DNA of 40,486 nucleotides from an uncultured Lachnospiraceae bacterium (GTDB taxonomy: Bacteria > Bacillota > Clostridia > Lachnospirales > Lachnospiraceae). Shown here piece after piece: positions 9,646-32,339 of the stretch. Position 1 is the stretch's first letter. The number at the start of each line of letters is the position of its first letter. The stretch covers positions 1-40,486 of the forward strand of contig CACYKH010000018.1 of the NCBI GenBank assembly GCA_902774915.1. Reading direction: 5' to 3'. Below the pieces are notes generated by a model, which saw only the letters and a list, made by a program, of their open reading frames with translations, did not search any database and had not been told where the DNA came from. Made by a program: the position numbers and the translations under genes.

Positions 9646-12600
9646 TTAATTAACCTGCGTAAATGTATAATCTCCGTCTGCATTTACATATACAGTTCCG
9701 CCACCATTATAAATAGTTGAATCTCCACTTACAGTCCATTTACCACTACCAAGTTTGTAGCTTTCCGAACTATCAAGTGGAAGAAGCTTACCAGCAGGAA
9801 TAATCTTATTCTTAAGCCATGTTGCCATAACTGTTATTTCAACATCATTTGAATTACCAGCCTCATCCTCTGCACTAAGATTAAATGTCTTTACGCCATT
9901 TAATGGATCAAGCTTTGCAGTAGTACTTGTCTTTGTCACCTTAAATGTTTCGCCATCAATAACAAATGTTGAAAGATGGTCATCAGAGATTTCTACTGTT
10001 AGCTCATCCGCATAAACACTACCCGTACTCTGTGAGAATGATGGTGTTGTCTTATCAATCTTAAGATTTTCTTTAACATCTATTGCATCTGTTAAAGCTC
10101 CGTCAGATCTCTTCAGATATATTGATGAAAGCTTATCCGAATAAAGTACACTCTCTGTGAACTTTCCACCTGCAGATGTAGATATGCTATATCCATCTGG
10201 TGCATTCAGATAAACATCCGCTACATAATAATTATTATTACCCTTCTTTCCGGAAATGATATAAGGAGTTTCCGGAGCCTTCAGATAAGAAAGGTTGAAT
10301 GTATCTTCACATTTTGTGCCTTCATATGTTTCAGTCTCAGGTATTCTCGCCTGAACAACATACTTGCCGGCTGTCGAAGGTTTTGTCTTTGTATACGCAC
10401 TATCCTCTTCACCTTCTGCCTTATAATAAAGCTCAGCCTCATTCTTACCATCAGAGTTGGTCTCAAGTATTATCGAATAATCAGTACCAACGATTGTATC
10501 TCCAATTGATAATGTCGCATCAGGTATAGGCTTCAGACTATACTTAAGTGAAAAGACAACTTCACTTGTATTTCCTGCTATATCTTCTGCCTTAACCTTA
10601 TATGTTCTAATTTCATTTCTATCAGCTATTATGGAAATGTCTGCTTTTCCATCTACAACTTCAATTTCTTCACCATTCAGTGTTACTGAGGTCAGATTTG
10701 TATCACTTACAGAAAAGTCTATCTTTCTCGCATGTACTTCTCCACCATACTCGAGATCTATAGCTATACCATCCTGATTGGTTACAGTTTTTGGAATGGT
10801 AGGTTTTGCTTTATCTACAAGAAGCTTTTCAACAGGAATTGGAGATGTGAATGCTCCGTCAGTACCTCTAATGAGATAAACATTTTCAAGACCTGAAGTG
10901 TAAGTAAGCTTTGCTGATGGCTCACTATTTACATCAGATGTTATACTGAAACCGTCTGCTGGAATCAGTTCTACATCACTTATGTAATATCCGTTTTTGC
11001 CCTTGGTTCCTGAAAGTGTATATGGTATCTCTGGTATTGCTGTAGGAAGATACTCCAATGTAACATTCCATTCGGATTTATTTCCAGCTACATCTTCTGC
11101 AACTATTTTATGAGTTTTTGTACCCGGATATAAAATAGAAAGATAAACATCAGCGGTTCCCATGTCCGAATCCACTTCTATTGATGTGCCATCTACTGTA
11201 ACAGATTTAAGTGTTCTGGCATAATCCTCTATTTCATCCTTTACTGTAAAACTTACAGATCTTGCTTTTATTACAACACCGTTCTCAATAGTTTTTGTTA
11301 CCGCATTGTCATCTTGATCAACTGCTGTATCCTGTAATATCTCAGGAGGAGTCTGGTCAATATAAAACGCGCCATCATATAGTCCATGATTGCCACTTGG
11401 ATCCGTTTTTCCACCAGTGGATATTTCTTGGTATACACCTGAAACACCGTAATACCAGCCATCTTCTGTCAAAGTGTATTTTGAGGCAAATGGTACTGTT
11501 TCTCCATCATCCGGTGATATCAAGTATCCGTCAGGCGCCACCAAAGTAACAGGTGTATTGTAGAAATCAGGCGCAGACTGAGTCTGCTCTATTGTACAAT
11601 ACATTGAACCCATAGAAATGCCCTTTATTCTGAACGCCTGCTGTCCTTCTATACCTCTATAATCTGTAGTCTCCGGAACATTAACATACATTACATATGT
11701 TCCAACTTTAGTAGGTGTTGCAGTATATGCATTACCAGTCACTACATTGCCCCAGTCATCCGTGGCAGTTTTGTAAGTGACTTGTGGTGTACCATCTGAA
11801 GTTGTCGATACTTTTGAACTGTAATTATAATTTATTCCGTAATAATAATTGTCATAAATACTCATTCCGATTGTAACTGTAGGCTCAGCCTTTACAACCC
11901 ATGAGGCTTTTTTATCTGTGATCAATTCACCTTCAATATTTTTAGTTTTACTTCCTGATTTCAGAGTAAAGTATGCACCATCAGAATTAACAACTGTATT
12001 TTCATCTGCAGTAAATGCTGCCCCGATACTTGTTGTAACATCTGGGTCATAGCCTGTAAATGTAAGACTGCTTGTTGCTTTAACAGTGGTAGCGTTGGTG
12101 AATCCATTTTTCCAGGTAATATTACTTGCAGCCAATTCACCAGTACCTGCATTATAACCACTTGTTGGTGATATAAAAGTACCAGCATTAACTGTAGAAT
12201 TTAAAAATTTAGTTTCACCTGTACAATCATAAGTATTAGTTATCGTAAATATTGATCCACTATTAACATCAACAGCTCCTGATCCGGTAAAATTATTGCA
12301 GGTTAACGTACCTGCATAAACATTAACTCCACTTGCATTGGTAATTGTACCGGAGCAATTAACTGTAGCAGTTCCGCCATTACGGCCGTTAACTGTGATT
12401 TTACCAATAATAGTACTAGCTGTTGTTGTACCTTTATTTGTAAAACTGCCATAATTATAAATCGTGTTACAATCCAATGTGGAAGCGTTTCCGGAAGTAA
12501 ATGTAGACGAAGATTGGTTGTTTAGAGTTCCAGTACATTTAAAATATCCTTCTGTGCTAAACGTTGAATCCGCATAAGCATTATACGATGAACATGTTAT

Positions 12601-13329
12601 TGATGAAGCCGAGCCAGCTGTAATCGTTGCACTGTTTTCATTAAAGAAGCTTCCAGTCGTCAGTGTACCATCCTCAGTAAATGTTCCATAGTTGTAAAAA
12701 GATCCACAACTAAGTGTTTTTCCTGCATCTACCGAAAATGTTTTTCCTGATGAATTTGTGACCGTTCCGGTAAAAGAACACAAACCTATATCATAAAAAC
12801 TACCTTCATTAGTAAAATGTCCGGAACAATTTAAAGTTCCATTTACCTGAGTAACTCCGGTGTTTGATAAACTGGAACAACGAAGTATTCCTCCTGATCC
12901 AACCGAAAGACCGCGACCAAATCCTGCTCCGTTTTCTATTCCATTACTGTTATTATTAATAGTACTAATTGTAACATCCGCACCATCTTCAACATGAAAA
13001 TATGGAGTACTTCCATTTATTGTCAATGATGATAATGTACCTGTTGCATCAGACTTTACATTAATTCTGGCTGTACCAGAAATAGTTAAATCTCCTCCGT
13101 TAACAAGGTAACGATGTTCAACATTACTGCTAGTTGAATCATAAACTTTTAATTCATTACCCGTCCAATTAATCTGATTTGCAGTTATTGAAGCTGGCAT
13201 AGTCTCGACAGTATCTGGTTCTGCAGCAAATGTTTCAAACTTTACTCCCCAAACTCCCGAAATCATGCATATTGAAAGTAAAACACTTATTATCTTTTTT
13301 AATATCTTTTGGGTTTTTCTATTCTTCAT
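9646..13329 (-). CDS. Large secreted repeat protein, possible adhesin or surface sensor
   Basis: The product is about 1227 aa from the ATG at 13329. Residues 1-35 are a signal peptide (basic start, IISVLLSICMISGVWG, cleavage after TFAA). Residues about 70-400 are short repeats rich in Gly, Ser, Thr and regularly placed Cys (LNCSGHFTNEGSF, LSCGSFYNYGTFTEDG, ITCSSYNAY) that look like a beta-solenoid. The C-terminal half has Ig-like modules: a block beginning YTLSGTKGKNGYYISDV recurs as YIISGKKGNNNYYVADV, each followed by IDKTTP/VDKAKP-type linkers. No LPXTG, wall-binding repeat or C-terminal membrane helix is visible. It lies 13 nt after fecR-like and is the second gene of the operon. The function is not known; contact with the CHASE2 sensor or FecR protein is an inference from context. 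Confidence 0.8.
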   Translation of the reverse strand: MKNRKTQKILKKIISVLLSICMISGVWGVKFETFAAEPDTVETMPASITANQINWTGNELKVYDSTSSNVEHRYLVNGGDLTISGTARINVKSDATGTLSSLTINGSTPYFHVEDGADVTISTINNNSNGIENGAGFGRGLSVGSGGILRCSSLSNTGVTQVNGTLNCSGHFTNEGSFYDIGLCSFTGTVTNSSGKTFSVDAGKTLSCGSFYNYGTFTEDGTLTTGSFFNENSATITAGSASSITCSSYNAYADSTFSTEGYFKCTGTLNNQSSSTFTSGNASTLDCNTIYNYGSFTNKGTTTASTIIGKITVNGRNGGTATVNCSGTITNASGVNVYAGTLTCNNFTGSGAVDVNSGSIFTITNTYDCTGETKFLNSTVNAGTFISPTSGYNAGTGELAASNITWKNGFTNATTVKATSSLTFTGYDPDVTTSIGAAFTADENTVVNSDGAYFTLKSGSKTKNIEGELITDKKASWVVKAEPTVTIGMSIYDNYYYGINYNYSSKVSTTSDGTPQVTYKTATDDWGNVVTGNAYTATPTKVGTYVMYVNVPETTDYRGIEGQQAFRIKGISMGSMYCTIEQTQSAPDFYNTPVTLVAPDGYLISPDDGETVPFASKYTLTEDGWYYGVSGVYQEISTGGKTDPSGNHGLYDGAFYIDQTPPEILQDTAVDQDDNAVTKTIENGVVIKARSVSFTVKDEIEDYARTLKSVTVDGTSIEVDSDMGTADVYLSILYPGTKTHKIVAEDVAGNKSEWNVTLEYLPTAIPEIPYTLSGTKGKNGYYISDVELIPADGFSITSDVNSEPSAKLTYTSGLENVYLIRGTDGAFTSPIPVEKLLVDKAKPTIPKTVTNQDGIAIDLEYGGEVHARKIDFSVSDTNLTSVTLNGEEIEVVDGKADISIIADRNEIRTYKVKAEDIAGNTSEVVFSLKYSLKPIPDATLSIGDTIVGTDYSIILETNSDGKNEAELYYKAEGEEDSAYTKTKPSTAGKYVVQARIPETETYEGTKCEDTFNLSYLKAPETPYIISGKKGNNNYYVADVYLNAPDGYSISTSAGGKFTESVLYSDKLSSIYLKRSDGALTDAIDVKENLKIDKTTPSFSQSTGSVYADELTVEISDDHLSTFVIDGETFKVTKTSTTAKLDPLNGVKTFNLSAEDEAGNSNDVEITVMATWLKNKIIPAGKLLPLDSSESYKLGSGKWTVSGDSTIYNGGGTVYVNADGDYTFTQVN

Positions 13330-13342
13330 AAGTCCACCACCC

Positions 13343-14242
13343 TTACTTCCACTCAATTACTGTATCTCTATCAATAGGAGTATCAAAGTCGAAATCCCAA
13401 CCTCCGCTTGATGCTGGGCTAAGTGAAGGCACTGTTGCCTTATCTCCCTTATTAACTGTCTGTGTTCCAAATTCTTTTTTGTCATACATAAATGTTACAT
13501 AGTATGGTCCTTCGAGAATTCTCTTAATCTCTGGATTTGTGATAGAGAGTTCTTTACCATCATCGTTAATCTCAATCAGAAGCTCAAGTACGTTATCAGG
13601 CAGAGTATTATAATCAATATCTGTAGGCTCTGATACATAGTCTGTAGTTGTTCCGTCCTCGTAGATGGTAACCTCCTTACCTTTTGGTACGCTGACTTCG
13701 TTATCTGATTCAGTTCCATCCTTATATACAAGCTTTGTAGCTACCGCACCTTCGAATACACAGATTCTTGTGTACTTAACTCCATCAATTTCATAGATGG
13801 TTACAAAGAAAACGGTACCACGAACAGACATCGTTGAATTCGGTGTATTTATATCATAACTCGAATCATCCGAAAGCTTGTTCTTTATATCATTTGTAAT
13901 AGAACCCTTTATAAGTTCAATATTCGTTTTACTATTTTTGCTGGATCCGGATGCATTAAGCTGTATCTCGGAGTTCTCCTCGAGATAAATAAACTTATCT
14001 TCATCCGCCTGAATTGAAAGTTTTCCGGTATCGAGTGATACCTTATCACCTGACTCGAGCACCATGTTGGCATAAGGAGTAATGTCTCCCTTTCCTTCAC
14101 GGGAAACATTTGCCTGGCCCTCTACTTCAAAGATCTTAAGAATGCGATATGCATCCTTCTTAGAAAGGACTAAGAATACAACCAATGCAGCGACTACTGC
14201 AAGAACGATTGCAGATATAATGATAACTTTTTTAGACTTCAT
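13343..14242 (-). CDS. FecR-domain membrane protein with C-terminal InlB-type repeat
   Basis: The 299-aa product has one N-terminal membrane helix (VIIISAIVLAVVAALVVFLVL) and is otherwise extracytoplasmic. Residues about 40-185 match the FecR domain: GDKVSLDTGKLSIQADEDKF, then ELIKGSI and TPNSTMSVRGTVFFV, where the VRGT-type turn is the family mark. The C-terminal 55 residues (VTFMYDKKEFGTQTVNKGDK, then WDFDFDTPIDRDTVIEW) resemble an InlB B-repeat found in bacterial surface proteins. FecR domains elsewhere act as periplasmic partners of sigma regulators or beside CHASE2 cyclases; no sigma factor gene is adjacent here. It is the first gene of the operon, preceded by GGGTGG. Confidence 0.82.
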   Translation of the reverse strand: MKSKKVIIISAIVLAVVAALVVFLVLSKKDAYRILKIFEVEGQANVSREGKGDITPYANMVLESGDKVSLDTGKLSIQADEDKFIYLEENSEIQLNASGSSKNSKTNIELIKGSITNDIKNKLSDDSSYDINTPNSTMSVRGTVFFVTIYEIDGVKYTRICVFEGAVATKLVYKDGTESDNEVSVPKGKEVTIYEDGTTTDYVSEPTDIDYNTLPDNVLELLIEINDDGKELSITNPEIKRILEGPYYVTFMYDKKEFGTQTVNKGDKATVPSLSPASSGGWDFDFDTPIDRDTVIEWK

Positions 14243-19076: not shown

Positions 19077-19667
19077 CTATATCTCTATAATGTAACGCTC
19101 ATAGGCATTTACAACTCGTGTATTGCCTCTCATATCCTCACGCTTAAACTCCCTGCCATAGTTCATATGAACGTGGCCATGAATAAAAAGCTTTGGCTCA
19201 TACTTATCCATAATAGTATTAAAACAATCAAAGCCTGTGTGAGGCATATCCTCTCCATCATGAAATCCCTTGGCTGGCGAATGGGAAAGTAAAATGTCTA
19301 CTCCCTTATGCCTCCAAAGCTTAGGTTTCATTTTTAAGAGACGCATTTTCATCTGCTTCTCAGTAAACTGATACGTGCCATAATTATAACACATACTACC
19401 GCCGAGTCCCATTATTCTCAGACCTTCATGCTCGTAAATCTGATCATCTACGCAGATGCATCCGAGAGGCGGAGTATCGTCATAGCAGGCATCATGATTT
19501 CCATGCACGTAAAGTATCGGACACTTGGCATAGGTTGCCAGGAACTCCAGATACTGCGGTGCCAGATCACCTGCTGACAGTATCAGGTCAATGTCCTCTA
19601 ATTTAGTTTTCTCGAAAAAATCCCATAAATATTTCGACTCAACATCAGCCAGCGCTAGAATTTTCAT
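19077..19667 (-). CDS. Calcineurin-like metallophosphoesterase
   Basis: From the ATG at 19667 the product is 196 aa. The metallophosphoesterase blocks are partly degenerate at the start (ILALADVESKYLWDFF in place of DxH) but then clear: ILSAGDLAPQYLEF (GDxx), ILYVHGNHDACYD (GNHD), ILLSHSPAKGF and LFIHGHVHMNYG (GHxH). The first metal motif, usually D-x-H, reads D-V-E. Substrate is unknown. The start overlaps the end of the ParB/BMP gene by 23 nt, and an alternative GTG lies at 19679. Overlap implies co-expression with that gene. Confidence 0.82.
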   Translation of the reverse strand: MKILALADVESKYLWDFFEKTKLEDIDLILSAGDLAPQYLEFLATYAKCPILYVHGNHDACYDDTPPLGCICVDDQIYEHEGLRIMGLGGSMCYNYGTYQFTEKQMKMRLLKMKPKLWRHKGVDILLSHSPAKGFHDGEDMPHTGFDCFNTIMDKYEPKLFIHGHVHMNYGREFKREDMRGNTRVVNAYERYIIEI

Positions 19668-21693
19668 CCTTCTGGACACCCTTCATTTCCACTAGTATCT
19701 TTGCTTCTTCATCCAGTTCTTCAATCTCTGGAATTTCGCCCACAACATTACTTACGAGCCAGTTCATCTTGATAATCTCATCTACACTTGGAACCTCTCC
19801 ATCAGGACTGATAAGATTTCCCTCCTGATCCTTTAGTTCACCACCGAAAGGTGAGAATTTATCTTCGATGATAAGGCCCTTCATAATCTCAACGAGCCTT
19901 CTTGTATCTGCCGGAACCTTCTCGGACATGATTATATCTACAACTCCTGCAGAAAGTCCCCACCAGTAATTGATAGGCTTGCTTTCATTCTCTGCGTCGG
20001 CACTGCTCCAGTTACCCTGCATGATCATGTTGATAATGCGCTCGTAGAGCTTGCCCCAGTTGTAAACCGTCATGGTCACATTTTCCGGACCGTTAACAGT
20101 AAGTCGGTACATACCGAACTTTCTTGAAGCTTCACTAGGATTGATCATATCCTGATCTGATACAACATCAATTCCTTCTTCGTAAATCGATTTATATATA
20201 TCATTCTTTGTCTGGTTATCCTTAAGCGATGTCCACTTAACGTGAACCTTAACCTTAGGATTAACCATATGTGCGCCCAGGGCAAATGCATTTATATTTG
20301 CTGTTATTCCATAAATTGGATAGGTAGCAACATAACCAATCTTATCAGTATCTGTGATAGCACCTGCTATCATTCCTGACAGGAACTTTGCCTCATAAAG
20401 ACGGGCGTCGTAGGTTCTTATATATCTATGTGATGTATTGATCGAACAATTGAGTATCTTTACATTTGGATATTTAATACCGCACTTCAGACTGGCGCCA
20501 ACCGACTGCGCCGTAGTTGTAAAGATAACCTCGGCTCCATGATTCTCAACAAGATCCTCAATAGCCGATATAATTTCTTCTTCCTTACCATTACAAGAAA
20601 TCTTAAGTGCAACCAGCTTGTCACCAAATTCTTCCTTGATGTAGTTTCTTCCAAGCTCATGCTGATAGAACCAGTCAGATTTGGAAGGATCCCCATCATA
20701 AACGAATCCAACCTTAAGCGGTTTGGATGCACTGTAGTTTGGAGCAAGAATCTGTGAGAGCTTGCTCTTCTTTTCTTCAGGCGGGTCGAGAGAAACCTCA
20801 ACTTCATATTTCTCATTGACTACCAGGAACTCCTGCCACATAGCAGCTATTCCTTCTTCAATCTCGTCTATACCCATATCGCAGACTGCATCGAAGCCCT
20901 TTAATTCAATAAAGACTATGAATGCATCTCCGGTGGTAATATCAAGACGTCCTCCACCTTTTTGTTTAAATGCCTTCTCGAATCTTTTGTATGCAGCCTT
21001 CAGCTCCAGGAGTGTATCATCAGACCATATCTTGGAAGCATCTGCTCTGATAACTGTTCCTGAACCATCTGCTGTATCCGAGGTTGAACCTACAGCACTG
21101 ACTGTTGTCTCGTCCCCGAGCTCACCGCCATGCTCCGTAGCAACACGAACCTGTTCCATGAGTCTTTCATAACCACCAACATGTGAGAAGGTTATGTAAT
21201 TAACTCCGGTCTTCTTATAGAAGTCCATATATTCGTAGTAGACCTTGACTATCTCGTCATCACTCAGTTTAGGAACCTTTCTTGTTACGAATGCAGGGAT
21301 AGAATCCGCCTCGAAAAACTTAAGAACACTAACTCTCTTGTTTCCCTCTACTACGTAATAATAATTCAGATATTCATAAACCTTTATGGCATCTCTAATA
21401 CCCTCTTCAAGATGAGCATCGCAGAGTGCGGACCACTTGGCACCAAACTCTGACTTAGGATCCATAAGAGGCATGAAATTAGAAGCAAAGGCCTGGGTTC
21501 TTCCAGATGTACTGGTACCCACAACTCTGTCCAGTGGAATGTCCACAAGACCGAGGTTGACCTCGCTTGCAATATCCTCTCTATTTATGATGTCATCAAG
21601 CACTGGAAGAAATGGGTAGCGTCCCTCTGACAAGCTGGCCTTGTAGGCCTTGTTTCCCATCTTCTTTGCTTTTTCATATAACTCTATAGACAT
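19645..21693 (-). CDS. Cytosolic fusion of a ParB-like domain and a BMP/PnrA-type ligand-binding domain
   Basis: The 682-aa product has no signal peptide, lipobox or membrane helix. Residues about 35-150 resemble a ParB/sulfiredoxin-like fold (VDIPLDRVVGTSTSGRTQAF, then YYYVVEGNKRVSVLKFF). A middle region around 195-310 has unclear helices. Residues about 325-610 match the basic membrane protein (BMP, PnrA/Med) fold of nucleoside-binding ABC receptors (LKVGFVYDGDPSKSDWFYQH, IFTTTAQSVGASL, YEAKFLSGMIAGAITDTDKI). Exported BMP proteins are lipoproteins; this one should sense a ligand inside the cell. AGGAGG precedes the ATG by 6 nt. It lies between malic enzyme and a phosphoesterase. The role is not known; a ligand-controlled regulator is an inference. 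Confidence 0.8.
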   Translation of the reverse strand: MSIELYEKAKKMGNKAYKASLSEGRYPFLPVLDDIINREDIASEVNLGLVDIPLDRVVGTSTSGRTQAFASNFMPLMDPKSEFGAKWSALCDAHLEEGIRDAIKVYEYLNYYYVVEGNKRVSVLKFFEADSIPAFVTRKVPKLSDDEIVKVYYEYMDFYKKTGVNYITFSHVGGYERLMEQVRVATEHGGELGDETTVSAVGSTSDTADGSGTVIRADASKIWSDDTLLELKAAYKRFEKAFKQKGGGRLDITTGDAFIVFIELKGFDAVCDMGIDEIEEGIAAMWQEFLVVNEKYEVEVSLDPPEEKKSKLSQILAPNYSASKPLKVGFVYDGDPSKSDWFYQHELGRNYIKEEFGDKLVALKISCNGKEEEIISAIEDLVENHGAEVIFTTTAQSVGASLKCGIKYPNVKILNCSINTSHRYIRTYDARLYEAKFLSGMIAGAITDTDKIGYVATYPIYGITANINAFALGAHMVNPKVKVHVKWTSLKDNQTKNDIYKSIYEEGIDVVSDQDMINPSEASRKFGMYRLTVNGPENVTMTVYNWGKLYERIINMIMQGNWSSADAENESKPINYWWGLSAGVVDIIMSEKVPADTRRLVEIMKGLIIEDKFSPFGGELKDQEGNLISPDGEVPSVDEIIKMNWLVSNVVGEIPEIEELDEEAKILVEMKGVQKDENSSAG

Positions 21694-21715: not shown

Positions 21716-22888
21716 TTACATCTTGCTGATACCTGACTTTACTGCTTCATCAGCAACTGCCTTTGCTACTACCTGTGCAACCTTCTCATTAAATGCATCA
21801 GGTATAATGTATTCTTCGCTGAGCTCATCATCTGTAACGATAGATGCTATAGCTCTGGCTGCAGCCTCTTTCATAGGCTCTGTGATTGCGCTTGCTCTTG
21901 CATCCAACGCACCTCTGAAGATGCCAGGGAATACAAGCACGTTATTGATCTGGTTAGGGAAGTCTGAACGTCCTGTTGCAACTATTCTTGCTCCACCTGC
22001 CTTAGCCTCATCTGGCATAATCTCAGGTGTTGGGTTTGCCATAGCGAAAACAATAGGATCATCTGCCATAGTCTTAACCATATCAGCTGTAACAAGTCCT
22101 GGAGCTGAAACTCCGATGAAGATGTCCTTACCCTTAAGTACATCTGCAAGACTTCCTGATTCTTTATTCTTATTTGTAACTGCAGCGATTTCCTGCTTAG
22201 CACTATTGAGCCTTGGATCTCCATCTACAAGTGCACCCTTACTATCAACAAGGACTACATTTCCAAGACCGAAGCTCTGAAGAAGCTTACAGATGGAAAT
22301 GCCTGCTGAACCAGCACCACTGATGACAGCGCTGCAGTCTTCCCACTTCTTACCAATGAGCTTAAGTGCATTAGTAAGACCTGCTGCAACAACGATAGCT
22401 GTTCCGTGCTGATCATCATGGAAAACTGGAATATCAAGTTCTTCCTTAAGTCTTCTCTCAATCTCAAAACATCTAGGAGCTGCAATATCCTCAAGGTTGA
22501 TACCACCAAATGAAGGAGCAAGTCTCTTTACTGTTTCAATTATCTCTTCAGTGTCCTTTGTATCAATACAGATTGGGAATGCATCTACATTTCCAAACTT
22601 CTTGAAAAGCACTGATTTACCTTCCATAACAGGGATAGCTGCAAGTGGTCCGATATCTCCAAGACCAAGAACTGCTGTTCCGTCAGAAACTACTGCAACA
22701 GTATTTGCCTTAAGTGTGTACTTGTAAGCATCTGCCGGATTCTCTGCTATCTTTCTACAAGGCTCTGCAACACCTGGGGTATAGGCAGTTGACAGATCTT
22801 CCTTTGTCTCCAGAGCAACCTTAAGCTTAACCTCAAGCTTACCCTGATTTTCCTCGTGCATCACGAGACTCGCTGCATTGTAATCCAT
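21716..22888 (-). CDS. NAD(P)-dependent malic enzyme
   Basis: The 390-aa product has the usual length of short bacterial malic enzymes, which decarboxylate malate to pyruvate. The N-terminal catalytic domain has the Tyr motif TAYTPGVAEPCRKI, the KANTVAVVSDGTAVLGLGD block with the catalytic Lys, and metal ligands in GGINLEDIAAPRCFEIE and FHDDQHGTA. The nucleotide domain has SGAGSAGISICKLL and later FAMANPTPEIMPDEA. It is 42 nt downstream of the Cys-less radical SAM homologue and 22 nt upstream of the ParB/BMP gene, all in one direction. Cofactor preference cannot be assigned by eye. Confidence 0.94.
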   Translation of the reverse strand: MDYNAASLVMHEENQGKLEVKLKVALETKEDLSTAYTPGVAEPCRKIAENPADAYKYTLKANTVAVVSDGTAVLGLGDIGPLAAIPVMEGKSVLFKKFGNVDAFPICIDTKDTEEIIETVKRLAPSFGGINLEDIAAPRCFEIERRLKEELDIPVFHDDQHGTAIVVAAGLTNALKLIGKKWEDCSAVISGAGSAGISICKLLQSFGLGNVVLVDSKGALVDGDPRLNSAKQEIAAVTNKNKESGSLADVLKGKDIFIGVSAPGLVTADMVKTMADDPIVFAMANPTPEIMPDEAKAGGARIVATGRSDFPNQINNVLVFPGIFRGALDARASAITEPMKEAAARAIASIVTDDELSEEYIIPDAFNEKVAQVVAKAVADEAVKSGISKM

Positions 22889-22930: not shown

Positions 22931-23791
22931 TTATACAATATCAAATATTGTTAATTGGTCACCAACAGTTTTATTAATGTATTGGCGTTTCCAGGATTTA
23001 AGTTTTTGAGAGCTGCAAATAATTTCATGACTCTCACAAATAGCCTGGAGTTCTGCCAGAATTTCCTTGGCATTTTCCGGAACCAGCTCTCCGGACTGTT
23101 CATATAAATTCGAGAATTCATCGAACTCTTTAGGGAACCTTTCCTTGAACTGACTATAGAAAAATTCTCTCACAGACTTCTTTATGGCAAGTCTGTAGTC
23201 CATAAGGTCGACCCCTAGTATATCATAATCTGTAAGGCATTGCACAACTTCAGGTATATCCTGGTCATTCACAAATGGAATAATAGGATAGGCGTCGATT
23301 ATAACTTCCACTCCAGCCTTCCGAAGTTCAGTAATAAGTTCCAGTCTTTCTTTAACAGTTGAAACCTCTTTTCCCTCTATCTTCTTCAGCTTCTTTTCAT
23401 CCAGAGTTGGGATAGTCATCTCCACGGCGCATTTGGTTTTTCTGGCAATTCCCGCTAGAATATCCATGTCACGACTTATTGCAGTCTGCTTGGTACTGAT
23501 CACAACACCGTAGTCATTATTCTCAATAACCTTTAGACTCCTCCTCGTAAGCTGATACTGTTTCTCATGACTGTTATAAGGATCGCCCAGATTGCCCATT
23601 ATGATAATGCCCTTGTTTCTTCTTGTTCGGAGCACACCACTCAGCTGTTCGGGCGCATCCATCTTAACACCAATATCCAGGTCATCGCCTCCAGGAATTT
23701 CCGTAAGGTAAATGCTATCTTCAGTTCTGCCTCTATAAATATTTAGTCCGTTTTGCGGAGTCAGAATATTTCTGCTCTCTATTGTATACAT
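22931..23791 (-). CDS. Spore-photoproduct-lyase-like radical SAM homologue lacking all cluster cysteines
   Basis: The 286-aa product follows the SPL/Rv2578c-type radical SAM family along most of its length: LTPQNGLNIYRG, GIIIMGNLGDPYNSHEKQYQ, LTRRSLKVIENNDYGVVIST, AVEMTIPTLDEKKLKKIE and DAYPIIPFVNDQ. The family's CTHGCIYC-type CxxxCxxC motif should follow IYRG. Here residues 22-29 read RTEDSIYL, so the three cysteine positions are Arg22, Ser26 and Leu29. It therefore cannot bind the usual 4Fe-4S cluster there. The frame is intact and the rest is well conserved, which argues for a kept non-enzymatic role rather than decay. It starts 18 nt after the jetC stop with an AGAGG site, in the position where a Wadjet operon would carry jetD. 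Confidence 0.82.
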   Translation of the reverse strand: MYTIESRNILTPQNGLNIYRGRTEDSIYLTEIPGGDDLDIGVKMDAPEQLSGVLRTRRNKGIIIMGNLGDPYNSHEKQYQLTRRSLKVIENNDYGVVISTKQTAISRDMDILAGIARKTKCAVEMTIPTLDEKKLKKIEGKEVSTVKERLELITELRKAGVEVIIDAYPIIPFVNDQDIPEVVQCLTDYDILGVDLMDYRLAIKKSVREFFYSQFKERFPKEFDEFSNLYEQSGELVPENAKEILAELQAICESHEIICSSQKLKSWKRQYINKTVGDQLTIFDIV

Positions 23792-23809
23792 TAATCAACC
23801 TCTTTAACA

Positions 23810-26800
23810 CTATACAAAATCAAAGGTCGCCTGTTCGTAATCCAGGTTCTTGTATTCAAGTTCTTCGCCCTTTGTCTTGCTACTGTAATTAACCACAACA
23901 GTGGTTGTTTTGTTGCCAGTCATCTGCTGACCCAGAACGTAGTTAATATCAAACTTACCTGTGATTTCAGGTGTAGCTCCACGCGCAGGAACAATAAGCT
24001 GACAACTATTCTCTTCAAGAAGTTTGAAGATTGGCTCCCAGATATAAATATCCTTAGCCGCTCCAAATGGGTTATCTATGAAGAGTGTTTTTGATCTGGC
24101 AGTATCCTGAACGGCGTACATACCAGCAATATAATTTATTATTGAAATCAGGAACTGTATATAAATACCCTGAGACTGTCCGGTACTACCAACCGCCTCT
24201 TCATATCTGAGGTATCTGCTCTGCTCCTTAATTCTTTCTCTCTTATAAAGCATCAGTCTTATCTTGGACATATCTGTAACGATGACTGAGAAAAGCTTCT
24301 TCATAGAAAGACTTGTGCTCAGGAACTTCTGCCTGTCGCCATCATCATTCTTCTTATCAACCTCTTCAACCACGTTATCAATATATTCAGACATTCTGTC
24401 CTTTATAAATTCATCCTTAACGTATGGAATGCTGAGACGTATCATCTGCACCTTGCTGTCACCCATTGTGATTTCAGAAAGCTTAGTCAGCTTATCCAGC
24501 TCGGAACGAACATCAAGACATCTCTCCACACATTGATCGACGAAGTTATCCTTCAGCTGCTGCATGCTTACAAGACTCTTCTCAACCCGGTCTCTCTCGA
24601 GGATTATTATCTCAATAACATCACCAAGTCTCTTCAGCAGTCTTTCTGCATCACGTCTGTTTTCAGGAATATTTACATCGTCCCTTATAGAAGCTGCAAG
24701 CTCCAGAACACCCAGGTTCATCAGAGTATCATAAACACTCATCTTAACCTTCATCATGTCAGCCCGGGCTCTGTCAATATCCTTGGACAGCTTGTCATAC
24801 TTCATAACATAGCTGTCAAATTCCTCGTCGATATTTGCAGTCGATTCAAATGCACTCAGCTCGGAAATATCTACACCAGCTGTATCCACAATCCTGTTGG
24901 CAAGCTTCATCAGGTCATCATTATTCTTCGCACTACTTGCCGCTTTATCCAGCTCAGCCTTCGCCTTATCCAGCATAGCCTTGTACTGTGCGCTTGTACC
25001 CTTAAGCTCATCCAGAGATTTTCTTGTATCCTGAATATATTCCTCACCAGGATTTTCAAGTCTCCTAAGAGCTCCGCCGCCGTATTCCATTTCCAGACGC
25101 TGCTTAGCATATTCAATACTTCCTTCAAGACGGGCCTTCTCAGTACTGATACCGGACATATCCTGTTCCAGCTTTCTTCTTTCACCCTGAAGGTTATCCA
25201 GCTCAGAACGCATGGCATCCAGAACCTCATCACTGACCGCAGTCAGACTGCCGCTCCTATCCAGCTCAGCAAGATCTGCCACATCAACTCCTAGTCTCTC
25301 GATTGCTCTGGTCTGTCTTTCAATAGTACCCTTCAGTGTATCCTGAAGCAGTTTTTCTTTCTCAAGAGAAATGCGACTGTCGCCGGAACCACCCAGCGCC
25401 CTTTCAAATGCATTCTCAAGTTCTGACTCATCTAAATCCAGTGGAGGAAATGCTGTGGTATCTATGTAATAAACAGAATACTTGTTATCCCATTTATAGT
25501 TCAGCTCATCCTTCTCTTTATTAAGAGTTTCAATCTGAGCTTCCTGTTCAAGAATCTTCAGCTCGTTACTTCTCTTGGAATTAGAAACCTCTTCTATTCT
25601 CGCCTCAATCTGCTTCTTATCATTTTTCAGATCTTCCTTGCGACGAGTAAGTTCATTCACTCTGTCCTGAAGAGAAACAAGATTAGTGAGACTTATAAGC
25701 TCAGCCTGGTATCTTTCAATATTCTTTCTAAGTTCTTCCAACTCATTTGTTGTACTTTCAAGATTGTCAGCCAGCTTCTGATTTGTCTCACGAAGCTTAC
25801 TGATTTCCTCTGCAGCAGATTTTTTATTTTCCTCTGCCGCTTTAAAATCCTGCTCAGCCGTGCTGTAGCCCTTCTCTCTGAAGAGCTTTACAAAATCCAT
25901 ATCCTCTTTCAGAGTTTCCAGCATGGCCTCGTTATTCTTTAATTCTTCCTGCTGGTTATCAATCTCAGAACCAAGCAGTCTAAGCTTCGCATCCTGGAAC
26001 TTAGGATCTAAGAAATATTCTTTATTCCTTCGAACGCATTCTACTCCGTCACCCAGAAGAAGGCTGACTCCGCCCAGCTGAGTTTTGTCATAAATATAAA
26101 CCTCTTCGTCGATATCCAGTTCCTTAAGTCCCGGATCCTCCAGCACTACAGAAAGGTCATCAACGATTACGCCAAATGCAATCCCCGGCGCCTTGTCCAG
26201 CACCTCTTCCTTCTTCTTATCAGGAAGAGCAGAAAGATAATCCATTCCGTACATAGCACTGATGCTATGTCTTGTGAATAGATAATCTATAACCTTTTCA
26301 ACACCCTTAGTTGCCTCAACAAGTCGGCCACCACGAATGTCTTTATCACGTTTCTCCAGTTCAGAAATAACGCCCTGAAGTTCATAAACTTTTATAACAC
26401 TGGCACTAAGTCTGTCACGCAGCTTCTCTTCCAACACATTTGGCTGAACATTCTTTTCATCAGCATAAATGCTGCAGATAGATGTATACTTACCGCTGCA
26501 CTTTTTATATTCTTCAACTCTTTCACGGAGCTCATCTAAACGAATTTCGTTAGCTCTATCCTCAGCAACCTTTTCATCCAGTTCTTTTTCAAGAGTCGCA
26601 ATATCAAACTCAAGTCTTTCCTTCTTAAGTACAAGCTCCTCGGTTTTCGCCTCGCACTCTTCTAGGGCTTTTGATCTGCTGCTGACCGCTCCACGAGGAT
26701 CCATCAGAAGCGAATAATCAATATCATCCTGAAGAGTATTCATCTCTTTATTCAGTTCATCAATATCCTTTGAAAGATATTCCTGTCTGCTGCCGATGAC

Positions 26801-28210
26801 TGCAAGCTCTGTCTCGCCCTCAGCCTTCTGCTTCATAAGAAGATCACTCTTCTCCTTGGTTTCAGCCAGCGCCTGAGTAAGCGGTGCAAGCTTCCTGTCT
26901 ATCTCTTCCAGCTTCTTATCCAATCTGTCTCTGATATTAGCAACAATAGTGTAGATGTCATCTGCACCCTTAGGTACATCTTTCTTTTCCTTACTAAGAG
27001 CTTCCAGCTCCTGAGTTGCCTTCTTAAGTTCAAGATACTCAGAAATAGCCGAGCGCTGTCTAAAGGCTTTGTCCTGCAGATCTATATCCTGTGATAGAGA
27101 CTTAATAGCAGCCTCTTTTCCAGAAATGAGTTCATTACGTGCAGCCAGCTCTTCAATATCCATATATATCTTCAGAACCTCTATCAGCTCCTTAACATCA
27201 CGGAGTTTTTCTTCCAGCTCGTCTGCATCTCCCTGCAGCTTATCCAGCTTCTCCTGTCTTGAACTCTTTTCATTTTCAAGAGTCACAAGCACGCGGCCAA
27301 TAGTTTCCGCAGTTCTTTCCTGATCCTTATAGAGCTCCATAAAGGACTGAATTCTGTCTATTAAAAGCTGTACCAGCTCCTGCTCATGATCATAAAGCTG
27401 AATGCCCTTCTTCTTCTCAGCCAGACTCTTCAGCTCTTCCTGAATAGTCATGAGAAGCGAAACCGTACTCTCTGTTTTATCAGACTCTCTTTCAGTCTTG
27501 GTCTGATATGCCTTCTCAATTATTTCCTCAATAAGAAGGTCCTCGATAACACGTCTTGTAGTCTTATAGTTAGATTCGAAGTAAGTACGAACATGTCCCT
27601 CAGTTTTGTTGATACCTCTGATGATCTCCCAATGACTTTCATAGAGACCATACTGAGCAACGAACCTCTGGTATTCACCCTTGCGGTCGAAAACCTGAAC
27701 GATCATGTTCTTGTCATTACGAGCCAGGTCGTGCAGATAATTCCTGAGAGCCTTATAAGAAATCCTCTCATTATCCTTTACAAGTGGAAGGTTCAGAATA
27801 TCATTCTTGTTATATTCCCTGTAGAAGATAACATAGTTAAAGTATTCAATCTGAGCCGTTCCATCCTTACGCTCTTCCTCTGTAGTCGCAGCCTTACGGG
27901 CAGCAAATCCGGTAGTCATATAACGCATACCTTCTTTGATGTCACAGCTGTCCAACTTCCATTCAATAAGGGAATGAATAACTGTATTACTGGAATCTCT
28001 GAAGAGCTTTTCAATTGGCTGCTTATCATCAAGAGTACAGTTAGGTATCAGGTTCTGCATCAGGAGCAGCATGAGCACACTCTTACCACCACCGTTTGCA
28101 AGATCATAAAGAGTATTACGACCATACATTCTCATGGAGAAATCGTCGTAGCTCTGAGTACCAAAATTATACTTTACATTGTTTACTCTGATTCGGTTTA
28201 TACTAGGCAT
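23810..28210 (-). CDS. jetC: JetC-like SMC/MukB-type ATPase of a type III Wadjet-like condensin
   Basis: The product is 1466 aa from the ATG at 28210 (GGAGGTG upstream; the in-frame ATG at 28225 would overlap that site). The N-terminal head has a P-loop, YDLANGGGKSVLM (Lys43, Ser44). Residues about 225-530 and 740-1150 are long coiled coils flanking a central hinge-like region (DLSVVLEDPGLKELDIDEEV). The C-terminal head has a signature-like GSTGQSQGIYIQF and Walker B TLFIDNPFGAAKD (Asp1379), then IVPARG. The residue after the Walker B Asp is Asn, not the Glu of SMC/ABC ATPases. Known Wadjet complexes extrude and cleave plasmid DNA. The gene overlaps jetB by 8 nt. Confidence 0.8.
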   Translation of the reverse strand: MPSINRIRVNNVKYNFGTQSYDDFSMRMYGRNTLYDLANGGGKSVLMLLLMQNLIPNCTLDDKQPIEKLFRDSSNTVIHSLIEWKLDSCDIKEGMRYMTTGFAARKAATTEEERKDGTAQIEYFNYVIFYREYNKNDILNLPLVKDNERISYKALRNYLHDLARNDKNMIVQVFDRKGEYQRFVAQYGLYESHWEIIRGINKTEGHVRTYFESNYKTTRRVIEDLLIEEIIEKAYQTKTERESDKTESTVSLLMTIQEELKSLAEKKKGIQLYDHEQELVQLLIDRIQSFMELYKDQERTAETIGRVLVTLENEKSSRQEKLDKLQGDADELEEKLRDVKELIEVLKIYMDIEELAARNELISGKEAAIKSLSQDIDLQDKAFRQRSAISEYLELKKATQELEALSKEKKDVPKGADDIYTIVANIRDRLDKKLEEIDRKLAPLTQALAETKEKSDLLMKQKAEGETELAVIGSRQEYLSKDIDELNKEMNTLQDDIDYSLLMDPRGAVSSRSKALEECEAKTEELVLKKERLEFDIATLEKELDEKVAEDRANEIRLDELRERVEEYKKCSGKYTSICSIYADEKNVQPNVLEEKLRDRLSASVIKVYELQGVISELEKRDKDIRGGRLVEATKGVEKVIDYLFTRHSISAMYGMDYLSALPDKKKEEVLDKAPGIAFGVIVDDLSVVLEDPGLKELDIDEEVYIYDKTQLGGVSLLLGDGVECVRRNKEYFLDPKFQDAKLRLLGSEIDNQQEELKNNEAMLETLKEDMDFVKLFREKGYSTAEQDFKAAEENKKSAAEEISKLRETNQKLADNLESTTNELEELRKNIERYQAELISLTNLVSLQDRVNELTRRKEDLKNDKKQIEARIEEVSNSKRSNELKILEQEAQIETLNKEKDELNYKWDNKYSVYYIDTTAFPPLDLDESELENAFERALGGSGDSRISLEKEKLLQDTLKGTIERQTRAIERLGVDVADLAELDRSGSLTAVSDEVLDAMRSELDNLQGERRKLEQDMSGISTEKARLEGSIEYAKQRLEMEYGGGALRRLENPGEEYIQDTRKSLDELKGTSAQYKAMLDKAKAELDKAASSAKNNDDLMKLANRIVDTAGVDISELSAFESTANIDEEFDSYVMKYDKLSKDIDRARADMMKVKMSVYDTLMNLGVLELAASIRDDVNIPENRRDAERLLKRLGDVIEIIILERDRVEKSLVSMQQLKDNFVDQCVERCLDVRSELDKLTKLSEITMGDSKVQMIRLSIPYVKDEFIKDRMSEYIDNVVEEVDKKNDDGDRQKFLSTSLSMKKLFSVIVTDMSKIRLMLYKRERIKEQSRYLRYEEAVGSTGQSQGIYIQFLISIINYIAGMYAVQDTARSKTLFIDNPFGAAKDIYIWEPIFKLLEENSCQLIVPARGATPEITGKFDINYVLGQQMTGNKTTTVVVNYSSKTKGEELEYKNLDYEQATFDFV

Positions 28211-28916
28211 TATCTTCACCTCCATTCATTTCGGCGAAGATGGCACTGCCATTATCTTCAAAATAATTTTCCGCTATGGCATGGAAGCGGTCAGTTGGAT
28301 AGAGCCTGTCATCCACAATTGTAAAAACGCCCTCTCCATTCATAAAGTTACTTGCCAGCTTAACGTATCCCATTCTTGAACCACGGGATGCCTTATTTCT
28401 GTCCTTATCTTCAGATATCATTGGTGGAAGTCCGTCCCAAAGAAGCGCAACAGCCTTGAAGGAGCTGTCCCCAATATCATCCTCACTATAAACAGATGCA
28501 TCACTGCTGATTCTTCCCAAATCCTTGTTGACTGCATCGATAATCTCATCGATTCTCACATAATCCTTAACCTGATATGTGTCCGAAGTCTTATAGAACT
28601 GAAGCAGCATCTCATAAACGATAAAGAATACAAGATAGAGTTCCTTGTTAAGTCTAAGGCCCATCGTCTTCTTAAGGTCATCATTTGTATAACCGAAAAC
28701 CTTGTTACCTGTTCCGGCTGTTAAGAAGATGGACTCATTGTATTCATAAAGCTTCAGGTTAAGTCTGCTCAGCAGACCCATTACTGTATCATAAACTTCT
28801 GTATCGGCATAGAATGCATTGTACAGTTCACTTGTCTCTTTATCCTTTGATGAAATGCTCTTGCCGGTAGCAAGCACACTGTAAATATCAAGGGCTTTCT
28901 CTAAACTTTTTTCCAT
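28203..28916 (-). CDS. jetB: JetB-like (MukE/kite-type, DUF6063) condensin subunit
   Basis: The 237-aa product has a helical N-terminal half (EKALDIYSVLATGKSI, LYLVFFIVYEMLLQFY) and a C-terminal winged-helix-like part (MGYVKLASNFMNGEGVFTIV, DDRLYPTDRFHAIAENYF). This fits the kite (winged-helix tandem) subunit that binds the kleisin in JetABC and MukBEF. Its ATG overlaps the jetA stop (TGATG) and its end overlaps jetC by 8 nt, so stoichiometry is probably set by coupling. The call leans on gene order; the sequence alone is not diagnostic. Confidence 0.68.
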   Translation of the reverse strand: MEKSLEKALDIYSVLATGKSISSKDKETSELYNAFYADTEVYDTVMGLLSRLNLKLYEYNESIFLTAGTGNKVFGYTNDDLKKTMGLRLNKELYLVFFIVYEMLLQFYKTSDTYQVKDYVRIDEIIDAVNKDLGRISSDASVYSEDDIGDSSFKAVALLWDGLPPMISEDKDRNKASRGSRMGYVKLASNFMNGEGVFTIVDDRLYPTDRFHAIAENYFEDNGSAIFAEMNGGEDNA

Positions 28917-30472
28917 CAGTCCATCCTCCTTTCTTTAATCCTGTTAAATGTAATCTGCGACAATTTTGCTATGTCGTCTTCATTTTCTATTTTCAGCTCA
29001 AGTTCTTCCTGACCATATTCCAGTTCGAATTCCACATCCTCATACTGGTCCAGCTCATCCTCACTGCTATAGCTTATTACCATATCCTCCAGGAAGGTCT
29101 CCGCATTATCCCGCATATCTTTTACTGAATAATGCTCTTTTCCAGCCAGATGTGTCAGGAAGGAATAATAATCACGGTTCTTATATATTTCAGGGCCAAA
29201 CTTAACTTCAAGGATTGCATTATATTCTTCCAGCGTTACCCTGTCCCATCTCTTCAGCCTTCCAATAAGTTCAAGGAAAAGCTTAGCGAAGTTCTGACCA
29301 ACATTCTCACTGAAGATCTCGTCCTCATATTTAAAGCTGAGGTCCGCTTTTACATCTTCTCTTATCTCACCCTTAAGTGAATCCGCAGTCTTTTGAAGGA
29401 CAATGTTATCTATGGTGGATATTGCCATGGACTTTCTTCTTCGAGGGAGCATGAAAGGACTTATGGTATTTACAAGTGCATCCACCCTGTCCTCATTTAT
29501 CATTCTGCTGAGAGTAGATTCGAAGTCGTAAGAAATCCTAAGACTTCTTGTTCTGCTTCTTCGTATCATCTCATCTGAAAAACGGGACAGCTCAGCCGTT
29601 GCCGCTATAAGTGCGCTATGACTTTCAATAGTCTGCTTAAGCATTGTCTGAAGACTTGTTATATCCCTTGCAGTCTTCGAATCACCGCCGTAGGTCAGTC
29701 TCGAAACTGCCTTGTCCACCAGCTCTCTATTTCGGGCAAAGGATTTTCTTTCCTCTGCAAACCAGACAGATGTCTGATCCATATATTCATCAACTGCCTC
29801 AGCACCTGCATGTACATCTGTCAGCAGAAGCTGAACAACCTCTTCACGTTTTTTCTCCAGCGCCTTAACCTCTATATTGATACGCTGAATAACATCCATA
29901 CTTCCACTAAAGTTTTCAGACTTGATAAGCTTTTCAAGAAGGAGCTGATCCATGTTGATGCGGCTCTCGTCTCTAACCTCTTTAGTCGTGAGGTAAAATT
30001 CTATTCCGTCCTCGGTTATGGTATAAACAACCTCAGTCTCTCTTACCGTGCTGTCCAGAAGTCTTACTCTGGCAGTCTTCTGTTTTCTATCAGACGGATC
30101 AAAGAAATTAAATTCAAATGCACGTCCATAATTTCTCATCTTGTCAAAAATATATTTGACCAGTTCATTTAGTTCTTCCTTGGAATAATCATCTCCAGGA
30201 CGCACATCAAAATCACGAGCCAGCAGCTTCAGACAAAAATCCTCATACCCCGAATAGGTAACAGGACTATCATTAAAACTGTTCTCGTTTATGAAAAATC
30301 TGAGCACAGCAAGAGTAATATAACCCATATCAAGAAACTTAAATCTCCCCTCCTTATATTGGCTAAATGTACTCTCAGCCAGAGTGAAGAATGGATAGAA
30401 TTTTCTCAGGTTAAGAATTCTCTCAGAATGGTTTTTAATTATGTCGTCGATCAGTGTAAACTGCTCTGCCAT
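28916..30472 (-). CDS. jetA: JetA-like (MukF/kleisin-type, DUF5716) condensin subunit
   Basis: The 518-aa product has an N-terminal winged-helix-like region (residues 1-100: NLRKFYPFFTLAESTFSQYK, GYITLAVLRFFI). A beta segment follows (ARVRLLDSTVRETEVVYTIT), then a long helical middle (INIEVKALEKKREEVVQLLL) and a C-terminal region ending in an acidic stretch and helix. This is the kleisin plan of the DUF5716 family, annotated as JetA of type III Wadjet. It is the first gene of the operon, preceded by AAGGTGG. No jetD (DUF2220-type nuclease) is present downstream in this window. Confidence 0.72.
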   Translation of the reverse strand: MAEQFTLIDDIIKNHSERILNLRKFYPFFTLAESTFSQYKEGRFKFLDMGYITLAVLRFFINENSFNDSPVTYSGYEDFCLKLLARDFDVRPGDDYSKEELNELVKYIFDKMRNYGRAFEFNFFDPSDRKQKTARVRLLDSTVRETEVVYTITEDGIEFYLTTKEVRDESRINMDQLLLEKLIKSENFSGSMDVIQRINIEVKALEKKREEVVQLLLTDVHAGAEAVDEYMDQTSVWFAEERKSFARNRELVDKAVSRLTYGGDSKTARDITSLQTMLKQTIESHSALIAATAELSRFSDEMIRRSRTRSLRISYDFESTLSRMINEDRVDALVNTISPFMLPRRRKSMAISTIDNIVLQKTADSLKGEIREDVKADLSFKYEDEIFSENVGQNFAKLFLELIGRLKRWDRVTLEEYNAILEVKFGPEIYKNRDYYSFLTHLAGKEHYSVKDMRDNAETFLEDMVISYSSEDELDQYEDVEFELEYGQEELELKIENEDDIAKLSQITFNRIKERRMD

Positions 30473-30725: not shown

Positions 30726-32339
30726 ATGAATAAACGAAGAAACATATTAATAGCTATTCTATGCGTAGTGATCATAGGCTCTGTCACAGCCGCATTTCTC
30801 CTATATTACAAACGCCCTAACACCTGGGTAACAACAGGCAGCAAGGGAATAAGATATGTAGACGAGAACCGGGAATATGTAAAAGATTCCTGGCTTTTGC
30901 TGGATGACAAATGGTATCACTTTAATGATGAGGGCTATGCAGATATAGGGCAAAATGCCATCGATGGCTTTAAGTATCATTTCGATGATAATGGCTCGCT
31001 GGATACAGGATGGGTTGATATAGACGGCAAGAAGATGTATGTCTTCCCTGACCACACAGTGGCTGTGGGCTGGAATACCATCGAAGAAAAGAAGTTTTAC
31101 TTTGATGAGCAAGGTTTTATGTTAACCGGTCGTACCACAGTGGATGGAGAGGAATACATACTGTCTGACGAAGGAATTCAGGATATTGGATGGAGCGAGG
31201 ACGAATCCGGCAATAAATGTTATGTAAACTCAGATGGTTCTATAGCTACCGGATGGCAGGAAATAGATGGTAAAACCTACTGCCTGAATGATGAAGGAAT
31301 ACCAGAAACCGGTTGGCAGAACTTCCTTGGAGATAAATACTATTTCGAAGAAAATGGTGAAGCCGCTACTGGTCCTGAAAAGATAGATGGCAGCTACTAT
31401 GTATTTGGTGAAACAGGAAAAATGATAACGAAGGATTTCCTCTTCGACTGTATAGATGAGATTGAAAATGACAGCAAAACCGTTGAAACATTCGGCGGTC
31501 TTGAGCTTAGTCAGTCCGACAAAACAGATTTACTAAACTGTGTGGACGAAATGCGAAATTGCAACACTGCAGGATTTGTAATGATAAATCTTTATACCGG
31601 CGAAGGAGTTGGCTATAACGTAGACAGCACTGTTTATTCTGCCAGCTGCATTAAGGGGCCTTACATAGCCTCCCTTGTGGACTACAAGCCGGAGCTATTA
31701 GAAAAATCAGCACATACTCTAGAGACTATCGTAATGTATTCTGATAACAAGCTTTACAGCAACACCAGGAAGACATATGGAAAAGAGTTCTTTGCTGAGT
31801 GGTGCGAGGAAGCAGATATAGATCCAAGTAATGCAACCTACCACTATCCACAGCTAAGTGCCAGGTCACTTGCAAAGCTATGGATACAGAATTACTACTT
31901 CTTCAATACTGACGATGTGGGAATGCAGATTAAAGACTGGTACATATCTCCTAACGCTTCTGCTATATACACTGCGCTTGGAACATATAATACAGATAAA
32001 GCTACAAACGCTACAACTTCCAGCACAGACAAAAAAGAAAACAATACAAATTCAAGTAAAGATAAAAGCAATAAAAATAACAAAGACACGAATTCGGATA
32101 ACCAGCCAATAAATGATACAGAAAAAGTTGTAGATGCAGGACTCGGATACAGAACAGAGTCCAAAGCAGGCTGGATATGCGAAGGAAAATACAGAGCCAC
32201 AACCGATGGTGGAATCATCTATCCAACAAACGGAGCCCCTTATGTCATTGCAATAATAACTGACATGCCATCAGACATGAACGGTCTCGAACCACTCTGC
32301 CTCAAGCTAAATGAAATAGCTGAGAAGTCTCAGAAATAA
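30726..32339 (+). CDS. Secreted protein with cell-wall-binding repeats and a class A beta-lactamase/transpeptidase-like domain
   Basis: The 537-aa product has an N-terminal membrane anchor or signal (ILIAILCVVIIGSVTAAFLL). Residues about 45-235 are eight to nine repeats of about 20 aa with GW, aromatic and Gly positions (GWVDIDGKKMYVFPDHTVAV, TGWQEIDGKTYCLNDEGI), the choline-binding/CW-binding type. Residues about 250-537 resemble class A serine beta-lactamases: an SxxK motif in SASCIKGPY, SDN in VMYSDNKLY and K-A-G in RTESKAGWI replacing KTG. A Lys/Asn/Ser-rich loop (about 425-460) interrupts the domain. No motif distinguishes lactamase from a transpeptidase/carboxypeptidase role. It is monocistronic, convergent with the EF-G-like gene. 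An AAAGG site lies 8 nt before the ATG. Confidence 0.82.
   Translation: MNKRRNILIAILCVVIIGSVTAAFLLYYKRPNTWVTTGSKGIRYVDENREYVKDSWLLLDDKWYHFNDEGYADIGQNAIDGFKYHFDDNGSLDTGWVDIDGKKMYVFPDHTVAVGWNTIEEKKFYFDEQGFMLTGRTTVDGEEYILSDEGIQDIGWSEDESGNKCYVNSDGSIATGWQEIDGKTYCLNDEGIPETGWQNFLGDKYYFEENGEAATGPEKIDGSYYVFGETGKMITKDFLFDCIDEIENDSKTVETFGGLELSQSDKTDLLNCVDEMRNCNTAGFVMINLYTGEGVGYNVDSTVYSASCIKGPYIASLVDYKPELLEKSAHTLETIVMYSDNKLYSNTRKTYGKEFFAEWCEEADIDPSNATYHYPQLSARSLAKLWIQNYYFFNTDDVGMQIKDWYISPNASAIYTALGTYNTDKATNATTSSTDKKENNTNSSKDKSNKNNKDTNSDNQPINDTEKVVDAGLGYRTESKAGWICEGKYRATTDGGIIYPTNGAPYVIAIITDMPSDMNGLEPLCLKLNEIAEKSQK

Follow-up and report, generated by a model that had tools for sequence, protein, structure and literature searches.

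Known Wadjet systems are composed of JetA, JetB, JetC and JetD, the last of which cuts the DNA that JetABC extrudes. The Wadjet systems treated in the excerpted text of PMC12287153 carry JetD. MukBEF replaces Smc-ScpAB in the genomes where it occurs, according to an extract of PMC10586767. The literature leaves open by what means MukBEF could discriminate leading and lagging strands and in what respect Wadjet types II and III differ from type I (PMC8379921; PMC10586767). No report on type III operons devoid of JetD appeared among the open-licence literature matches listed.

We analysed a stretch of 40,486 nts from an uncultured Lachnospiraceae bacterium (hereafter, the window), in which jetA, jetB, jetC and, 18 nt further, a gene for a homologue of spore photoproduct lyase (SPL) follow one another on the minus strand (Table 1), at the coordinates originally assigned to them. 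The JetA3, JetB3 and JetC3 models of PADLOC match the three Jet proteins over nearly their full length (the conserved columns of JetC begin at Met6, around position 28210). The three genes form one operon and, as in Wadjet type III, their order is jetA-jetB-jetC and the Walker B of JetC contains DNPF. Unlike type III systems, the window has JetD neither in the operon nor elsewhere in its genome, its JetC falls in a separate clade, and the ABC signature is STGQSQG instead of SGGE or SGAE. The JetABC operon without JetD reported in the initial annotation is thereby confirmed, but its DUF5716 label for JetA is not, as Pfam gave no match above cut-off. A three-subunit operon without nuclease is also found in MksBEF and MukBEF; unlike these, the window operon belongs to the type III lineage by the PADLOC models, coexists with ScpB, and encodes a JetC with a clamp-motif-like tail, a putative further difference.

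Table 1. Position of the genes and motifs discussed in the text.
Feature	Position in window	Strand	Remarks
jetA (JetA3-like)	28916..30472	-	PADLOC PDLC00560, 587 bits; kleisin by family assignment
jetB (DUF6063, JetB3-like)	28203..28916	-	PF19539, 143 bits; PADLOC PDLC00571, 284 bits; KITE by family assignment
jetC (JetC3-like SMC ATPase)	23810..28225	-	PADLOC PDLC00581, 1519 bits over residues 6-1471; conserved head regions
JetC Walker A GGGKS (residues 45-49)	28079..28093	-	81/81 full-length clade JetC
JetC ABC signature STGQSQG (1347-1353)	24167..24187	-	81/81 full-length clade JetC
JetC Walker B FIDNPFG (1382-1388)	24062..24082	-	Asn in place of the usual catalytic Glu
JetC C-terminal tail QATFDFV	23813..23833	-	Sliding-clamp-motif-like; similar to own-genome PolC tail QLTFDF
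SPL-like radical-SAM pseudoenzyme	22931..23791	-	Pfam Radical_SAM
Lost cluster motif (R22, S26, L29 instead of CxxxCxxC)	23705..23728	-	By comparison with canonical relatives
SPL-like C-terminal QLTIF	22943..22957	-	Clamp-motif-like; low-confidence tail, residues 278-282 and 284-286 with pLDDT <50
Malic enzyme	21716..22888	-	Conserved flanking gene; outside the system
Divergent choline-binding-repeat gene	30726..32339	+	Occupies the jetD place of JetD-bearing type III operons; outside the system

When the window JetC was searched in 299 genomes of the family, 52 gave a match. A close clade, with matches of at least 484 bits, comprises 38 of the 299 genomes including the window's own, while the remaining family matches do not exceed 106 bits; 16 genomes hold such a divergent copy, G151 and G174 having both kinds. 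Within a sample of the class, JetC matched in 18 of 291 genomes, and the three close matches all belong to the same family as the window. We fetched all 38 close loci and 25 divergent ones (5 + 20), the latter from 9 of the 16 family genomes with a divergent copy and, outside the family, from 14 of the 15 genomes of the class sample that gave a match (G405 was left out).

The JetD_C family (PF09983) gave no match at E≤1 in the window's genome, which is 98.9% complete in 67 contigs; the same search matched 2 of 14 control genomes. With a JetD profile built from five divergent loci and retrained on its own matches, JetD was found in 24 of the 25 divergent (type III) loci, the sole miss (L168) being the split 3′ half of the G456 operon, whose other half (L169) has JetD. 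In all 24 loci jetD is the immediate 5′ neighbour of the gene in the jetA position (L071, L173 and L177 had no separate ORF called for jetB). Therefore, the gene after jetC does not occupy the place of jetD, contrary to what had been proposed for the SPL-like gene; jetD is missing as stated, but the downstream side, where its absence had been noted, is not where type III operons carry it. The profile found JetD in none of the 98 fetched close-clade and genus loci when applied to called ORFs (85 of these loci contain jetC and 65 extend at least 1.2 kb 5′ of jetA), and in none of 79 named loci of a separate collection searched in six frames, whose organisms largely overlap with those of the 98 loci and which has several contigs in common with the fetched set.

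Genome-wide, PF09983 matches 102 of the 299 family genomes. Since it is present in 13/38 close-clade genomes versus 89/261 others (tables read by eye), JetD shows no association with the clade, and in all 13 genomes it lies on a different contig from the close jetC. Divergent JetC, by the same reading by eye, shares its contig with JetD in 15 of 16 genomes (G136 is the miss), the widest spacing, above 10 kb, being that of G176. Within the window's genus, JetC is found in 54 and JetD in 11 of 61 genomes, never close to jetC; only in G304 do both lie on one contig, more than 1.3 Mb apart. The search of family and genus thus reveals no jetD elsewhere that is co-conserved with the operon; the presence of such a jetD is what the initial annotation had named as fatal to its reading.

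When the heads of 75 JetC were placed on a tree (made with a quick method, rooted on the 23 JetD rows and containing some long branches), the 52 JetD-less rows fell on one side of a single branch with support 100. On this tree the window operon belongs to one JetD-less Lachnospiraceae clade that arose by one change. With the root on the JetD rows, JetD would have been lost rather than gained.

The JetC sequence has the layout of an SMC ATPase, with Walker A at one end of a long protein and the signature and Walker B at the opposite end. The stretch DNPFGA is found in 81/81 full-length JetC of the clade; in the five JetD-bearing type III JetC that we inspected, the signature is SGGE or SGAE and Walker B contains DNPF. 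The catalytic Glu of Walker B usually sits where type III JetC has Asn, and this Asn occurs in type III JetC with and without JetD (window 24062-24082; L070-L074). Because of this Asn, ATP hydrolysis by JetC remains putative. Searches of PDB sequences with JetC and the SPL-like protein returned nothing meaningful. Finite pairwise dN/dS values for jetA, jetB and jetC lie between 0.01 and 0.25, as is the case for genes under purifying selection, and those for pairs of Cys-less SPL between 0.016 and 0.20. These values, together with the ATPase motifs retained throughout the clade, make it highly improbable that jetABC and the SPL-like gene are a decaying remnant drifting since the loss of jetD, even though JetD and the cluster Cys have been lost and JetC gave no match in 7 of the 61 genomes of the genus.

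The neighbourhoods of the operon recur across genera. In 12 of the 38 loci dnaX-ybaB-recR (identified by Pfam on one representative each) lie 5′ of jetA, directly in nine, after one gene in two and after three genes in one. The clamp loader is encoded by dnaX. In the window's group jetABC lies 5′ of malic enzyme, with an aldolase gene 5′ of jetABC in some relatives. Furthermore, in both G302 and G304 jetC is carried by the single large contig, so that a nuclease-less set of SMC, kleisin and KITE, the subunits being recognised by family assignment only, is chromosomal. ScpB was found in 41 of the 42 JetABC-positive genomes searched, including the window's own (the miss is G092), and in 42 of 43 searched overall, among them G301, which has no JetC match. 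By the ScpB search, a replacement of Smc-ScpAB, as expected of MukBEF proper, is thus not what these genomes show. The stable chromosomal neighbourhoods, and ScpB in the same genomes, suggest a condensin in an accessory role, as a parallel to MksBEF. The housekeeping, MukBEF-like alternative offered in the initial annotation gains support from ScpB, from the dnaX-ybaB-recR or aldolase/malic-enzyme neighbours and from the lack of JetD co-conservation.

The PADLOC models file the JetABC proteins as defence, against this chromosomal reading. The operon could still be a defence system, in which JetABC recognises plasmids and silences them by non-cutting extrusion or recruits a nuclease encoded elsewhere; all three proteins are assigned to Wadjet type III, and 13 of the 38 clade genomes do have JetD on another contig. 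However, JetD is no commoner there than in the other family genomes, none was found near the operon or in the window's genome, and the neighbourhoods recur as described, so that we regard continued defence as unlikely. No clear defence-island contrast emerged when the neighbour families of JetD-bearing operons were compared with those of JetD-less ones (10 proteins each).

A gene encoding TPR, an acidic linker and a P-loop-like region (646-1320 aa; e.g., L063:10297-13386) stands behind jetC in 27 clade loci, directly in 20 and after one gene in 7. It was considered as a new fourth subunit and rejected: being found in 290/299 family genomes, it is a core gene.

The SPL-like protein of the window has the partial TIM barrel of the SPL fold. 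Unlike spore photoproduct lyase and the canonical SPL-like copies of Lachnospiraceae, it has lost all three cluster Cys: in place of the GCTHGCIYC of canonical relatives it has GRTEDSIYL, its only Cys are at positions 121, 185, 252 and 259, and the CxxxCxxC motif of an active radical-SAM enzyme is absent. The description of a Cys-less SPL homologue just behind jetC is therefore accurate. A second, Cys-bearing copy is present in the same genome, at the end of contig C36, which cuts it. The jetC-linked copies form a clade apart from the canonical ones; in the genus, 56/56 of them have lost the cluster motif, while linked copies outside the genus (L032, L033 and L037) keep it. The Cys loss is thus a late event in one genus, and hence no part of the JetD-less nature of the operon. 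No Cys-less SPL homologue was reported among the literature matches listed. The protein neatly exemplifies a radical-SAM fold that selection has maintained although the cluster ligands are gone, and its Cys-bearing sisters allow a comparison.

One of the two readings in the initial annotation has the SPL-like protein as a dedicated fourth subunit replacing JetD, and a count was proposed there of how often an SPL-like gene follows a jetC lacking jetD. In the genus, the gene follows jetC on the same strand in 49/49 loci with both ORFs called and in two further loci where the SPL ORF was found in six frames; moreover, JetC and the SPL-like protein both have clamp-like tails (see below). However, no SPL match was found in any of the 33 clade loci numbered L036 and L038-L069 (of which L068 ends within jetC). 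Furthermore, SPL is retained in five genomes of the genus that gave no JetC match (G301, G314, G333, G334 and G356, two of the five being 88% and 90% complete), and an SPL pair from such genomes (L140/L146) has an omega of 0.03, a sign of purifying selection. By these sequence comparisons the SPL-like protein is not an obligate fourth subunit, and its role as a dedicated one appears quite improbable.

The bacterial clamp-binding motif has the consensus QL[S/D]LF or QxxLF, and the clamp motif of B. subtilis PolC is C-terminal, as given in extracts of PMC12309361 and PMC4549789 (the PolC motif in the former). Peptides resembling this motif form the C-termini of JetC and of most SPL-like copies. 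To our reading this is new, as no report among the open-licence literature matches listed joins a Wadjet or SMC subunit to a clamp-binding motif. Loose and strict patterns, written after the C-termini had been viewed, were counted in the last 14 residues of homologues that are not independent samples, leaving out two JetC truncated at contig ends. The clade JetC tails match in 84/86 cases with the loose and 4/86 with the strict pattern, and those of JetD-bearing type III JetC, L168 included, in 19/24 and 14/24, respectively, the strict form being QLSLF-like. SPL-like tails give 48/64 loose and 33/64 strict, leaving out 16 canonical rows, several of which are short at the 3′ end. For the named loci, the counts are 75/75 loose with one strict for JetC, and 40/51 loose with 33 strict for the SPL-like protein. 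Shuffling the tails yields mean loose matches of 9.4/86 for clade JetC, 2.9/24 for JetD-bearing JetC and 4.5/56 for degenerate SPL, the last versus 42/56 observed.

It is possible, though somewhat unlikely, that the tails are phylogenetic relics or chance hydrophobic ends that do not bind DnaN, an objection to the tethering step only. The pattern is post hoc, the sequences are related, and the loose pattern also matches 6/24 JetD tails (strict, 0). The window match is weak: QATFDF of JetC fits the loose pattern only, without the usual Leu-Phe, and QLTIF of the SPL-like protein is close to QxxLF. Against this objection, 795 other complete ORFs of at least 150 aa from the same loci, some of which are probably not genes, give 6 loose and 0 strict matches, and no tail matches among JetA (0/77), JetB (0/75) and malic enzyme (0/54). 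In addition, the strict form occurs in the diverged JetD-bearing JetC, and a form like that of the window JetC occurs in PolC of its own genome. This PolC ends in QLTFDFLSE and that of G302 in QLTFDFLSDE; therefore, the Phe-x-Phe variant of JetC is also the form on the polymerase of the genus, a likeness that is the strongest support for the JetC tail as a putative clamp motif. The other PolC tails are QLAFEF (G304), QLTFSF (G160), QFSFQF (G040), QLTFIF (G129), QLSLF (G008) and QYDLMGM (G180), the last being the one of the eight unlike the rest. Since the motif varies among these eight Lachnospiraceae (L265-L272), the preference of the DnaN groove may have drifted.

We consider it rather likely that the operon encodes an accessory chromosomal condensin, derived from Wadjet type III by loss of JetD and working beside Smc-ScpAB. 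The features on which this builds are all read from the DNA: the composition, the absence of JetD, the conserved motifs, purifying selection, the recurrent neighbourhoods, ScpB and the JetC tail. JetABC would extrude DNA loops without cutting them; the JetC tail may dock on the DnaN sliding clamp, which would bring JetABC to DNA that has just been replicated and let it assist in separating or compacting sisters. The SPL-like neighbour would be a separate protein, usually with a clamp-like tail too and in the genus devoid of the [4Fe-4S] ligands, and would probably act by binding where DNA is damaged or being replicated. According to an extract of PMC8379921, E. coli places clamp-marked lagging strands at midcell in a MukBEF-dependent manner; a clamp link is therefore plausible for a related machine, though not demonstrated. 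The genus genomes in which JetC gave no match count against the condensin reading, and the sparse distribution in the family (38/299) means that the operon does not look essential.

A plasmid-cutting machine thus seems to have become a chromosomal one in a lineage other than MksBEF. If the tails bind DnaN, an SMC complex would have a direct route to newly replicated DNA. In a broader form, to which we give an even chance, type III JetC with or without JetD would be a client of the sliding clamp, its C-terminal peptide tethering an SMC loop extruder to DnaN; in this way, JetD-bearing systems would examine plasmids as they replicate, and the JetD-less clade would represent a chromosomal condensin coupled to replication.

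Some features of the surroundings can be added. In related genomes a small charged protein of 86-244 aa is encoded between the SPL-like gene (or jetC) and malic enzyme (L032, L033, L035-L037, L139, L140 and L146); it was not seen in the window, and the L032 copy had no Pfam match. As for the genes after the SPL-like one, malic enzyme, BMP and phosphoesterase were named correctly, but the ParB part of the ParB/BMP fusion is a label of the initial annotation, Pfam showing BMP only: the gene at 19645-21693 (minus strand) encodes a C-terminal BMP/PnrA substrate-binding domain behind the stretch called ParB, and some relatives have homologues close to malic enzyme. Finally, an ORF of 1236 aa without Pfam match, starting with TTG, occupies 9646-13356 on the minus strand and is flanked by a gene with a FecR domain and one for a CHASE2/nucleotide-cyclase protein.
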